A stretch of 11,778 bases of DNA, taken from the NCBI GenBank assembly GCA_026985375.1, contig JALSQP010000082.1, positions 1 through 11,778 on the forward strand, read 5' to 3'. Shown one piece after another: positions 10,070 through 11,778 of this stretch. How positions within the stretch are numbered: position 1 is the stretch's first letter; each line of letters opens with the position of its first letter. Position numbers and translations under genes: made by a program. This DNA comes from Desulfurococcales archaeon. Lineage in GTDB: Archaea; Thermoproteota; Thermoprotei_A; Sulfolobales; Desulfurococcaceae. Below the pieces are notes generated by a model. It was not told the DNA's origin, did no database searches, and was given only the letters and a program-made list of their open reading frames with translations.

Positions 10070-10114
10070 CCACATATATCATTCAAAATCAACAGTGCCT
10101 GAATGGTGATAGGA

Positions 10115-10327
10115 ATGGGTAAAGTAAGAACGAAAATGATCAAGAGAACCGCTAGAGAGCTACTTGAGAAATACCCTGATGTATTCACAAATGATTTTGA
10201 GCACAACAAGAAAGTAGTTAGTCAGCTCGTTATAACAGGATCAAAGCGTGTGAGAAACCAGATAGCAGGCTACATAACACACCTGGTAAATATAAGGCTT
10301 AAGCGTGAGGCACGTACGATTTCTTAA
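10115..10327 (+). CDS. rps17e: 30S ribosomal protein S17e
   Basis: A 70-residue small-subunit protein shared by archaea and eukaryotes and absent from bacteria. MGKVRTKMIKRTARELLEKY, NDFEHNKKVV and SKRVRNQIAGYITHLV match the family throughout, and the length is normal. ATG 10115 is chosen over ATG 10103 because GGTGAT at 10106-10111 sits correctly before it and family members begin MGxVRTK. Followed after 14 bp by a Cgi121-like gene, probably in the same transcript. Confidence 0.95.
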   Translation: MGKVRTKMIKRTARELLEKYPDVFTNDFEHNKKVVSQLVITGSKRVRNQIAGYITHLVNIRLKREARTIS

Positions 10328-10341
10328 CATCTCAAGGTTAG

Positions 10342-10869
10342 TTGAAATTGGATAGAATCAAAGCATCTAATAACACCTTACATCTTCCAATCAATATTGA
10401 GCTTCAAGGAAACAGAATCCTAATCAATTATATGGGTAAAGAGATCAAAGCATACATCTATGTATGTGATGGGACGAAAAAGGACATCGATAAAGAAATA
10501 AAAGAACTAGATATCTCTCCATCTCATCCCATAGCAATCATACCTTTTACTATGATAAACTCCATTTGGCAAATAGTGTTTGGTATAATTAACTATGAAA
10601 TTATACACACATATCGGAAAAACTTATATGATAAATTTAGAAATAAGGGGCTCCTTCTATCTATGCTAATAACAGGCGAACAACAGCTAGGTGATATTAT
10701 TAATAGATTAAGAGATGAATATGTCCGCTCTAATTCAAAATATTTTGTGATCTCGCTCCAAGACTGCATAATCCTATCCGATAAATGTAGTGAAGATGTA
10801 CAGATCAATGCGTCTATCGAGCCGAGGCATCTTATAAAAAACGTGGATAATTATCTGAAACTCATATGA
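10342..10869 (+). CDS. Cgi121-like protein, putative KEOPS subunit (divergent)
   Basis: 175 residues, Lys- and Ile-rich. I assign it tentatively to the Cgi121/TPRKB family, a KEOPS component that binds the tRNA 3' end during N6-threonylcarbamoyladenosine synthesis. The support is the helical middle region: PFTMINSIWQIVFGIINYEI (68-87), then NLYDKFRNKGLLLSMLITGE (93-112) followed by QQLGDIINRL. This resembles the Cgi121 order 'helix; Asn-x-x-x-Lys/Arg-x-x-x-E-ILL-x-x-x-G-xx-Q-I-xx-A-I'. The usual Glu before the ILL stretch is replaced by Gly-Leu, and the early part is hard to match. The start is TTG at 10342, or TTG 10348 with better spacing from AAGGTT (10334-10339). Co-directional with S17e and probably translated from its transcript. 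Confidence 0.5.
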   Translation: MKLDRIKASNNTLHLPINIELQGNRILINYMGKEIKAYIYVCDGTKKDIDKEIKELDISPSHPIAIIPFTMINSIWQIVFGIINYEIIHTYRKNLYDKFRNKGLLLSMLITGEQQLGDIINRLRDEYVRSNSKYFVISLQDCIILSDKCSEDVQINASIEPRHLIKNVDNYLKLI

Positions 10870-10883
10870 GGGCCCGGTAAAAA

Positions 10884-10976
10884 TTACCATTCTTCCTCTT
10901 CTTCCCACCATTCTTCTTCCTCTTCCCATTCTTCTTCCTCTTCTTCCCACCATTCCTCCTCGAAGTATACCACCAT
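10884..10976 (-). CDS. Novel Glu/Trp-only acidic mini-protein (30 residues)
   Basis: From ATG 10976 the frame reads MVVYF and then only Glu and Trp: 19 Glu and 6 Trp in 25 residues, ending with Trp and TAA. Trp occurs at 9, 10, 17, 23, 24 and 30, about every seven residues. A GGGGG run (10988-10984) lies seven bases upstream, a TAA in the same frame lies two codons upstream, and a TATA-like box at 11036-11027 predicts a start about 30 bases before the ATG. The codons are varied between GAA and GAG. No function can be assigned and I know no family. Extreme charge (about -19) with Trp stripes could suit binding to a basic surface, metal or nucleic-acid-binding protein; that is speculation. The alternative is that the purine-rich tract is a simple repeat with a chance ORF. 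Confidence 0.55.
   Translation of the reverse strand: MVVYFEEEWWEEEEEEWEEEEEWWEEEEEW
10890..10955 (-). repeat. Two perfect 24-bp direct repeats inside a purine-rich tract
   Basis: The 24 bases encoding E-W-W-E-E-E-E-E occur identically at 10955-10932 and 10913-10890 (minus strand), separated by 18 bp of similar sequence encoding E-W-E-E-E-E. The strand asymmetry is complete: the minus strand is purine plus T in TGG only. The repeat length keeps the reading frame, so duplication would lengthen the peptide without breaking it. Confidence 0.85.
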
Positions 10977-11026
10977 GAATTATCCCCCGCGTGTCTGTTG
11001 GCCCATAATGGAATTGGCTCCTAAAT

Positions 11027-11036
11027 GATATTAAAA
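11027..11036 (-). promoter_or_regulatory. Putative TATA box for the Glu/Trp mini-ORF
   Basis: TTTTAATATC on the minus strand predicts initiation near 11006, upstream of GGGGG and about 30 bases from ATG 10976. AT-rich surroundings make chance matches likely. The rest of 10977-11169 holds no other gene that I can support; TTTTTAATAA at 11096-11105 or AAAGATTAA near 11142 could serve the zinc-ribbon gene on the plus strand. Confidence 0.3.
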
Positions 11037-11169
11037 TATATGGTTATATCAAAAAGGTCTCCTCCTATATATAGTAAGGCTCTTGTTGATAGACAATTTT
11101 TAATAACCCATATATTACAATCCATATGCGTAACTCTAAGTAAAAGATTAACAGTTAATGGGGACAGAT

Positions 11170-11454
11170 ATGGTCAGATTTTGCCCCAGATGTGGTGGAC
11201 CAATGGTTCCGGTCAAGAAAGACAAGCAGGTATATCTTAGATGCCTCAGATGCGGCTACACGATCAGGGCAGATAAAAAGGCGACAGAATCCTATAGAAT
11301 AAAGTATCAGGTTGAAGAAGATAAGAGAGTTATAACTTCAAAAGCCACGGAAGCCGAACGCCCTGTCCTTTCCCCAGAAGAGAGAGAAATTCTTAGGGAA
11401 TACTATGAAGTATTTCTTGAAACGTTTCAGGAAGAGGAAGGCGGTGAGGATTAA
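11170..11454 (+). CDS. TFS/Rpb9-like protein with only the N-terminal zinc ribbon
   Basis: 94 residues. The N-terminus MVRFCPRCGGPMVPVKKDKQ, with C5-x2-C8 and LRCLRCGYT (C25-x2-C28), is the Rpb9-type zinc ribbon that starts archaeal transcription factor S. TFS proteins are about 105-115 residues and end in a second, TFIIS-type ribbon carrying the catalytic Asp-Glu that stimulates RNA cleavage. Here that ribbon is absent: residues 45-94 have no Cys and form a charged helix (LSPEEREILREYYEVFLETF) with the acidic end EEEGGED. No ribbon remnant is visible downstream, so this is not a simple frameshift. It could still bind RNA polymerase through the first ribbon. The ATG at 11170 has GGGG six bases upstream; ATG 11158 overlaps that site. 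Confidence 0.72.
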   Translation: MVRFCPRCGGPMVPVKKDKQVYLRCLRCGYTIRADKKATESYRIKYQVEEDKRVITSKATEAERPVLSPEEREILREYYEVFLETFQEEEGGED

Positions 11455-11661: not shown

Positions 11662-11778
11662 ATGCCAAGAATAGCGGTGGTCGATAGAGAATATTGTAAA
11701 CCTAATAAATGTGGCTTAGAATGTATACGTTTCTGTCCAATTAACAAGAGTCGCCGAGGCACGGCGATCGAATTATCC
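11662..11778 (+). CDS. abce1: ABCE1/RLI ribosome recycling ATPase, N-terminal fragment
   Basis: The first 39 codons only; the gene continues past the right edge. MPRIAVVDREYCKPNKCG and LECIRFCPINKSRRG are the invariant start of ABCE1 (RNase L inhibitor homologue), with Cys at 12, 17, 21 and 25, the first ligands of its two [4Fe-4S] clusters. The full protein uses paired ABC ATPase domains to split post-termination 70S ribosomes in archaea. The ATG at 11662 follows GGCTGAT (11651-11657). TATAAAG at 11642-11648 looks like a TATA box but is too close to the ATG for an ordinary leader, so TTTAATAA near 11573-11580 may be the promoter. Confidence 0.95.
   Translation, partial: MPRIAVVDREYCKPNKCGLECIRFCPINKSRRGTAIELS

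Follow-up and report, generated by a model that had tools for sequence, protein, structure and literature searches.

The window, which is the whole stretch of 11,778 nucleotides analysed here, contains on its minus strand a short coding sequence (10884..10976) of 30 codons that runs from an ATG to a TAA. Its product (ORF 10976-10884), the peptide MVVYFEEEWWEEEEEEWEEEEEWWEEEEEW, consists of 19 Glu and 6 Trp with few other residues, and we refer to it as the EW microprotein. A Shine-Dalgarno-like GGGGG (10984..10988, minus strand) lies 7 nt before the ATG and is identical in 5/5 congeners, and an in-frame TAA is found upstream of the ATG with a single TTC codon separating the two. The longest exact internal repeat of the coding sequence is 24 nt (GAATGGTGGGAAGAAGAGGAAGAA), which covers codons 8-15 and 22-29, 42 nt apart and in frame. 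A preliminary description had reported the near-pure Glu/Trp ORF of 30 residues, the GGGGG 7 bases upstream, the preceding in-frame stop and the in-frame 24-nt repeat, and all of these were found again when the sequence was re-read. Further upstream, a TATA-like box (atatattttaatat, 11028..11041, minus strand) is located 52-65 nt before the ATG and is near-identical in 5 congeners; it is probably the promoter of the EW gene. The leader from this box to the ATG (10977-11027, GGAGCCAATTCCATTATGGGCCA...) is almost invariant in five congeners and may be a regulatory element. Within the same genus, this leader is kept while the cgi121-like protein encoded next to EW falls to 50% identity in one congener.

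The EW gene converges with a gene for a Cgi121-like KEOPS subunit (10342..10869, plus strand), with 14 nt from stop to stop, and beyond it lies the gene for S17e (10103-10327). On its other side, the EW gene is divergent from the gene of an RPB9/TFS-like zinc-ribbon protein (11158..11454, plus strand), homologues of which were found in 60/61 genomes. These three names had been proposed from the sequence alone. That of S17e was borne out by Pfam (PF00833 at 1.7e-21), while the zinc-ribbon gene matched Zn_ribbon_RPB9 at 5.5e-5, just under the gathering score of Pfam (23.4 versus 25.2 bits). The cgi121 identity is weakly supported: the protein alone had no match in Pfam, CGI-121 was matched in 2/12 aligned Cgi121-like members (best E 0.004), and the best PDB match of the profile was 1zd0, PF0523, at E 0.011. 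The start of abcE1/rli1, which encodes the ribosome-recycling ATPase, follows at 11662..11778 on the plus strand, reads MPRIAVVDREYCKPNKCGLECIRFC... and runs off the window; it was judged by its likeness to the ABCE1 starts of congeners, and the family (Fer4_RLI, ABC_tran) was assigned on the homologue L157.

The variation among relatives shows how the EW gene has been kept. Five genomes of the genus have this stretch; in them, 8/8 variable columns in the EW tract (codons 6-30) are at codon position 3, and all of them are GAA/GAG. Two codons outside the tract differ in the encoded residue, with Val/Ile at codon 3 and Phe/Leu at codon 5. In 45 sister pairs, taken from 158 tracts that were in part collected with patterns and a compositional filter, which prefers intact Glu/Trp frames, 194/216 nucleotide differences were at codon position 3, with 167 synonymous and 30 non-synonymous codon changes compared to an expected synonymous fraction of 0.18. 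Four tests did not start from EW itself, namely the five-congener alignment, the loci located through the cgi121-like gene, the survey that started from ABCE1 and the wider stretches of its five exceptions. The cgi121-like gene was located in 30/61 genomes, including that of the window, and all 30 have an orthologous in-frame Glu/Trp ORF converging on it at a stop-to-stop distance of 1-65 nt. Frameshifts and stops in relatives, which had been named beforehand as evidence against a gene, were looked for in these genomes, and the EW frame was intact in 30/30. The shortest natural EW has 12 residues (MRWFEEEWEEEW-TGA) and ends 1 nt from the cgi121-like stop in genome G016 (L044 after 1891). In other lineages, an SD-like word was found upstream of 40/57 EW starts, and TATA-like words peak at 41-45 nt (10) and 56-60 nt (9) before the start, both being counts made without a shuffled control. 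Taken together, the comparisons show strong selection on the protein and make it near certain that EW exists as a selected coding sequence and very likely that it is translated into a peptide. The preliminary description of a real, selected and very probably translated acidic-aromatic peptide that length cut-offs miss is thus strongly supported, by the silent variation and by the ORFs conserved in 30/30 genomes.

The composition of EW was examined in 111 unique tracts, a set built partly via patterns and a composition filter biased to intact Glu/Trp frames. Glu makes up 72%, Trp 17% and Asp 5% of the residues, and the length is tolerant. Successive Trp are mostly adjacent or 5-8 residues apart; a spacing of 5 was observed 109 times compared to 35 ± 5 in shuffled tracts, and spacings of 2-3 are avoided (14 observed versus about 100 shuffled). 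The tract ends in Trp in 103/111 cases, in a set partly selected by patterns that demand a terminal Trp. AlphaFold2 predicted a single helix for residues 2-29 with a mean pLDDT of 94, which for a Glu-rich 30-mer alone is weak evidence. The helical moment of the Trp residues at 100 degrees was 0.350, below that of shuffled tracts (0.404 ± 0.019). An amphipathic or heptad helix was rejected, since the Trp share no helical face despite the AlphaFold2 helix. The 'near-heptad rhythm' of Trp noted at the outset thus holds as a non-random spacing and does not hold as a helical hydrophobic stripe.

A pattern for the C-terminus, ...WEEE(E)EW-stop, matched 68/214 genomes of the order with one match each, and as a negative control the reversed pattern matched none, which is more than chance would give. 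With a stricter two-part pattern, 84 stretches were obtained from 84,980 bacterial and archaeal species, and every title was archaeal: Desulfurococcales, Sulfolobales, Pyrodictium, Ignisphaera, Pyrobaculum, Thermoproteus, Thermofilum, Bathyarchaeota, one Methanomethylicota and two Thermococcus-labelled MAGs. A looser pattern matched 126/397 genomes of a phylum sample (genomes at least 80% complete, the window's own genome excepted), with matches of the reversed control in 3 genomes; the two genomes it matched in family f15 comprise one match out of frame and one that reads WEEEKDW-stop. The form differs between lineages, being EEEWWEEEEEEWEEEEEWWEEEEEW in the window's genome, EEEWEEEWEEEEWEEEEWEEEW in sister genera, MEEDWEDIEEEDWEDIEEEDWEEDEW in family f11, where Asp stands in place of part of the Glu and Trp is kept, EEEDEWEEGEDEEWEEEEW in family f14 and EEEEWPEDEEEEEWPEDEDDFEEEEEW in family f16. 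EW is a genuine protein gene, usually single-copy, and one of an unnamed family of archaeal microproteins with 12 to about 70 residues, in which runs of Glu (or Asp) are broken by 2-6 Trp and the commonest ending is ...WEEEEW.

Several variants were observed beside the usual form. One genome, G235 of family f21, holds three separate pattern matches rather than the usual single copy. At nine loci (L133, L141, L144, L147, L148, L170, L176; L130, L159) a basic head (MSKRKTPPK..., MQPPKKKRK...) precedes the acidic Trp tract, and these forms have no ABCE1 alongside in the fetched stretch; the bin JZ-2_2_bin_4.3.1 contributes two stretches, both of the basic-head form (L133, L176). Two more divergent acidic ORFs with repeated EWPEDEEE units are found upstream of ABCE1 in family f16 (L319, L321), which suggests that the family may be wider than the DNA patterns show. 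At two further loci, L134 (EW stop 5843, plus strand) and L183, a LysW-like zinc-ribbon protein (MPTVSCPVCGADFEINEKEF...) ends in the EW tail; the L134 form matched PF21344 at 7.7e-6, just below the cut-off.

NCBIfam had no match for 6/6 EW peptides without the ribbon, and Pfam had none for 3/4, with E 0.58 for the chance match of the fourth; neither library gave a family match for the window peptide. Two EW peptides were searched against protein databases and gave 65 candidates, none at E<=0.01, and 875 candidates, none at E<=10; we read these empty results as a reflection of composition correction and not of an absence of relatives. A PDB search with one EW peptide found nothing at E<=10. 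Since the composition-corrected searches were empty, short length and low complexity together hide EW. A text search of the accessible literature found no paper with WWEEEE, WEEEEWEEE, EEEWEEEEW, EEEWEEEW or EDWEEEDW, and none was found in searches on archaeal small proteins of glutamate and tryptophan or on an acidic motif of ABCE1/eIF3j; on the gene neighborhood of ABCE1 in archaea, the accessible part of PMC4275035 concerns TSR3/TSR4.

The neighborhood of EW was surveyed from both sides. For the survey starting from ABCE1, 60 genomes were chosen from families already seen, all from Thermoproteota and with pattern matches and non-matches mixed. An EW-type ORF was found directly upstream on the same strand in 25/30 genomes of the order. 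Outside the order, ABCE1 itself was found in 27/30 genomes, and 13/27 had an EW-type ORF upstream on its strand. All 38 of these ORFs are on the ABCE1 strand, 40-614 nt before ABCE1, and no EW ORF was found elsewhere in the 57 ABCE1 stretches (up to 3.4 kb). When wider stretches were taken for the five exceptions in the order, an EW ORF was present within 1.6 kb of ABCE1 in 5/5, in rearranged positions: in genus g27 it lies behind ABCE1 by 421, 883 and 1,041 nt on its strand in three genomes and by 1,118 nt on the opposite strand in a fourth, and G053 has it 1.4-1.5 kb upstream, on the opposite strand. These moved ORFs (L342-L345 and L346) end in EEEEWE or EEEW, and they provide a natural test of cis versus trans action. 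Outside the order, 14/27 genomes had no EW beside ABCE1, four of which (L333, L334, L340, L341) had a short upstream stretch or a partial ABCE1 match. Genomes in which no EW was found still have ABCE1, so ABCE1 does not depend on EW everywhere.

Starting from EW, 50 loci were examined from the 68 matches in the order. ABCE1 lies 38-385 nt downstream on the same strand in 22, 1,337-1,369 nt downstream with other genes between in 4 of the window's family, and 0.7-1 kb away on the other strand in 16, all from the window's family; no ABCE1 was found in the fetched stretch at 8/50. The 84 collection loci (L112-L195) come partly from the same genomes as the order loci (L062-L111), and the counts are not summed. 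ABCE1 is downstream on the same strand at 54-495 nt in 47 of them, elsewhere in the stretch in 13 (11 on the other strand) and absent from the stretch in 24, several of which have little flank. Outside the order, among the matches listed, ABCE1 follows EW at 29/30 loci, at 60-176 nt in 25 and at 862-1026 nt in 4; these loci (26 from family f14, 3 from f44 and 1 from f28) were drawn from a longer list. In unique codirectional cases, the distance from EW to abcE1 is 41-385 nt in 67/79. Thirty order genomes were selected as ones that the strict pattern missed; only 3 of them had an EW ORF near ABCE1, and at least six of the remainder carry EW-type ORFs in other places. No ABCE1 was present in the fetched stretch in several genera of the window's family, at Pyrobaculum- and Thermoproteus-type loci, where EW adjoins a SpeH-like gene (name read by eye), and in one Bathyarchaeota subtype, in which the form with the MSKRKTPPK head is beside other genes. 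In one Thermococcus-labelled MAG, EW adjoins a MoeA-like gene (name read by eye). For the window's family, the neighbor that is both closer and always present is the cgi121-like gene (30/30). The EW gene is retained even where it has been inverted or placed behind ABCE1, so selection seems to act on the product and not on a leader position. Across lineages, ABCE1 is the recurrent neighbor of EW, and taken together, these arrangements make a functional tie between EW and ABCE1 likely, though not a universal one.

We propose, at a confidence slightly short of even, that EW is a trans-acting acidic Trp ligand of ABCE1 or of the ABCE1-bound 30S subunit that adjusts ribosome recycling. The peptide would be made from its own short mRNA or, in other lineages, as the first cistron before abcE1. 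As a small, highly acidic and multivalent Trp ligand acting in trans, it would bind ABCE1 or the 30S subunit carrying it, and would adjust the association, ATPase cycle or release of ABCE1 in recycling. This mode may be likened to that of the acidic Trp N-terminus of eIF3j/Hcr1 or of the acidic-hydrophobic tail of aP1, without demonstrable homology to them. A trans-acting product is the economical reading, as a leader that works purely in cis is excluded where the gene is flipped, in the window's family, and where the copies have moved. Binding to ABCE1 or ABCE1-30S is proposed because two known ABCE1 ligands are acidic stretches that carry aromatic or hydrophobic anchors.

The composition of EW (72% Glu, 17% Trp, 5% Asp) and its tolerant length would also suit a fuzzy multivalent binder of another kind, a general acidic chaperone or mimic of nucleic acid whose charge and Trp stacking shield a basic protein (a ribosomal protein, Cgi121/KEOPS or a chromatin protein), with a link to ABCE1 that is historical only. 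That EW and the cgi121-like gene always face each other tail to tail in the window's family would fit this role as well. The preliminary description had suggested a mimic of nucleic acid or a partner of a basic protein, whereas the genome context indicates the more specific ABCE1. The ABCE1 neighborhood is found repeatedly, in several families within the order and beyond it, and outlasts rearrangement, and among the clustered Bathyarchaeota neighbors no Cgi121-like ORF was recognised by eye, an asparaginase-like gene being found upstream instead. We consider such a general shielding role unlikely.

A cis-acting leader is a still less probable account. EW would then be a uORF on the abcE1 mRNA, and ribosomes stalling or dropping off at the Glu run or the Trp codons would give feedback on abcE1 by the level of ABCE1 or the supply of Trp. 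Acidic runs destabilise translating ribosomes, and many lineages have EW immediately before abcE1 in the same orientation (41-385 nt in 67/79; 25/30 order genomes). In contrast, the EW gene of the window's family is flipped and runs towards the cgi121-like gene in 30/30, three g27 genomes have EW behind abcE1 and a fourth has it on the opposite strand, and in G053 it is upstream on the opposite strand. ABCE1 is on the other strand at 16/50 order loci and 11/84 collection loci, and elsewhere EW stands apart; the Glu/Trp composition persists through all of these inverted, moved and ABCE1-distant loci. For both the window's family and the rearranged loci, the cis leader was rejected as the sole role.

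A non-protein purine tract acting as DNA or RNA (a terminator, an antisense RNA over the end of cgi121 or a triplex tract), whose GAR/TGG repeats are open by chance, would agree with the strand-asymmetric purine repeat with its 24-nt internal repeat and with the location at a convergent gene end, but it was rejected by the codon-position bias (position 3 in 194/216 and 8/8 differences) and is very hard to reconcile with tracts that are in frame and stop-terminated in 30/30, SD-like words before 40/57 starts and f11 forms that swap part of the Glu for Asp with Trp retained. A LysW-related amino-group carrier or substrate of peptide modification would agree with the two loci (L134, L183) at which a single ORF joins a LysW-like zinc ribbon to an EW tail. 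It is highly improbable, since the peptide of the window lacks a zinc ribbon and has Trp instead of EDWGE at its end, and the identified neighbors in the window are translation and transcription genes.

The proposal of a trans-acting ABCE1 ligand can be extended to the phylum, which we regard as doubtful: Thermoproteota may hold an unrecognised and widespread recycling cofactor, a microprotein built of little more than two kinds of amino acid that docks on ABCE1 in the post-splitting complex and is a functional counterpart, convergent or stripped-down, of the acidic Trp arm of eIF3j. If EW serves ABCE1, archaeal recycling has a missing factor and the eIF3j-ABCE1 partnership gains an archaeal parallel. 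Even without a role at ABCE1, EW offers a clean example from nature of a low-complexity acidic-Trp microprotein that is functional. Over much of a phylum, selection has maintained a protein made up almost entirely of two kinds of amino acid, one of which, Trp, is the costliest of all, and no family library that was searched includes it. Because the natural minimum is 12 residues, EW can be approached directly with synthetic peptides.

Acidic tracts with anchors of this kind are found in several known systems. Disordered regions of histone chaperones and transcription activators are rich in Glu/Asp with spaced aromatic anchors, as in EW; unlike EW, they are segments of large eukaryotic proteins, and we know of no link between them and ABCE1. 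The C-terminus of LysW carries an acidic EDWGE motif with Trp, and LysW/ArgW resembles EW in this acidic Trp C-terminus and in the LysW-like ribbon fused to an EW tail at two loci, whereas both the zinc ribbon and the C-terminal EDWGE are absent from the window peptide.

Two further systems are known ligands of ABCE1. The N-terminus of eIF3j reads DSDSWDADAF...DRWEGEDEDEDVKDNWDDDDDE (checked on chain 6ybw_z, 258 residues), and PDB 6zvj contains ABCE1 together with eIF3j. In the parts of the sources available to us, Hcr1 is found in Rli1 complexes and extra Rli1 suppresses the deletion of Hcr1 (PMC3836723), the Hcr1-Rli1 partnership is described with direct binding cited (PMC5737393), and a study of the archaeal 30S-ABCE1 complex describes eIF3j as an assistant in recycling that may affect the ATPase (PMC7196836). 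The acidic stretch with spaced Trp in eIF3j/Hcr1, a partner of ABCE1/Rli1 in recycling, resembles EW in composition; the PDB search with one EW peptide gave no statistical sequence match to eIF3j. They differ in that eIF3j is a eukaryotic protein of 258 residues with further regions, all missing from EW, which in its 30 codons is archaeal, has little but the tract and uses Glu rather than Asp. The tail of A. pernix aP1 (KKEEEVDLSGLSGMFGF) binds aEF1A and, by a citation in the same partial source, ABCE1 (PMC6791870). It has a short acidic stretch followed by a hydrophobic/aromatic C-terminus, as EW has a Glu run followed by a C-terminal Trp. In contrast to EW, which is free-standing, Trp-based and encoded elsewhere, aP1 belongs to the aP0-aP1 stalk and its tail uses Leu/Met/Phe, and its aP0-anchored N-terminal part has no room in the 30-codon EW coding sequence. 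EW is a member of neither the eIF3j nor the aP1 family, the further parts of which are absent from it.
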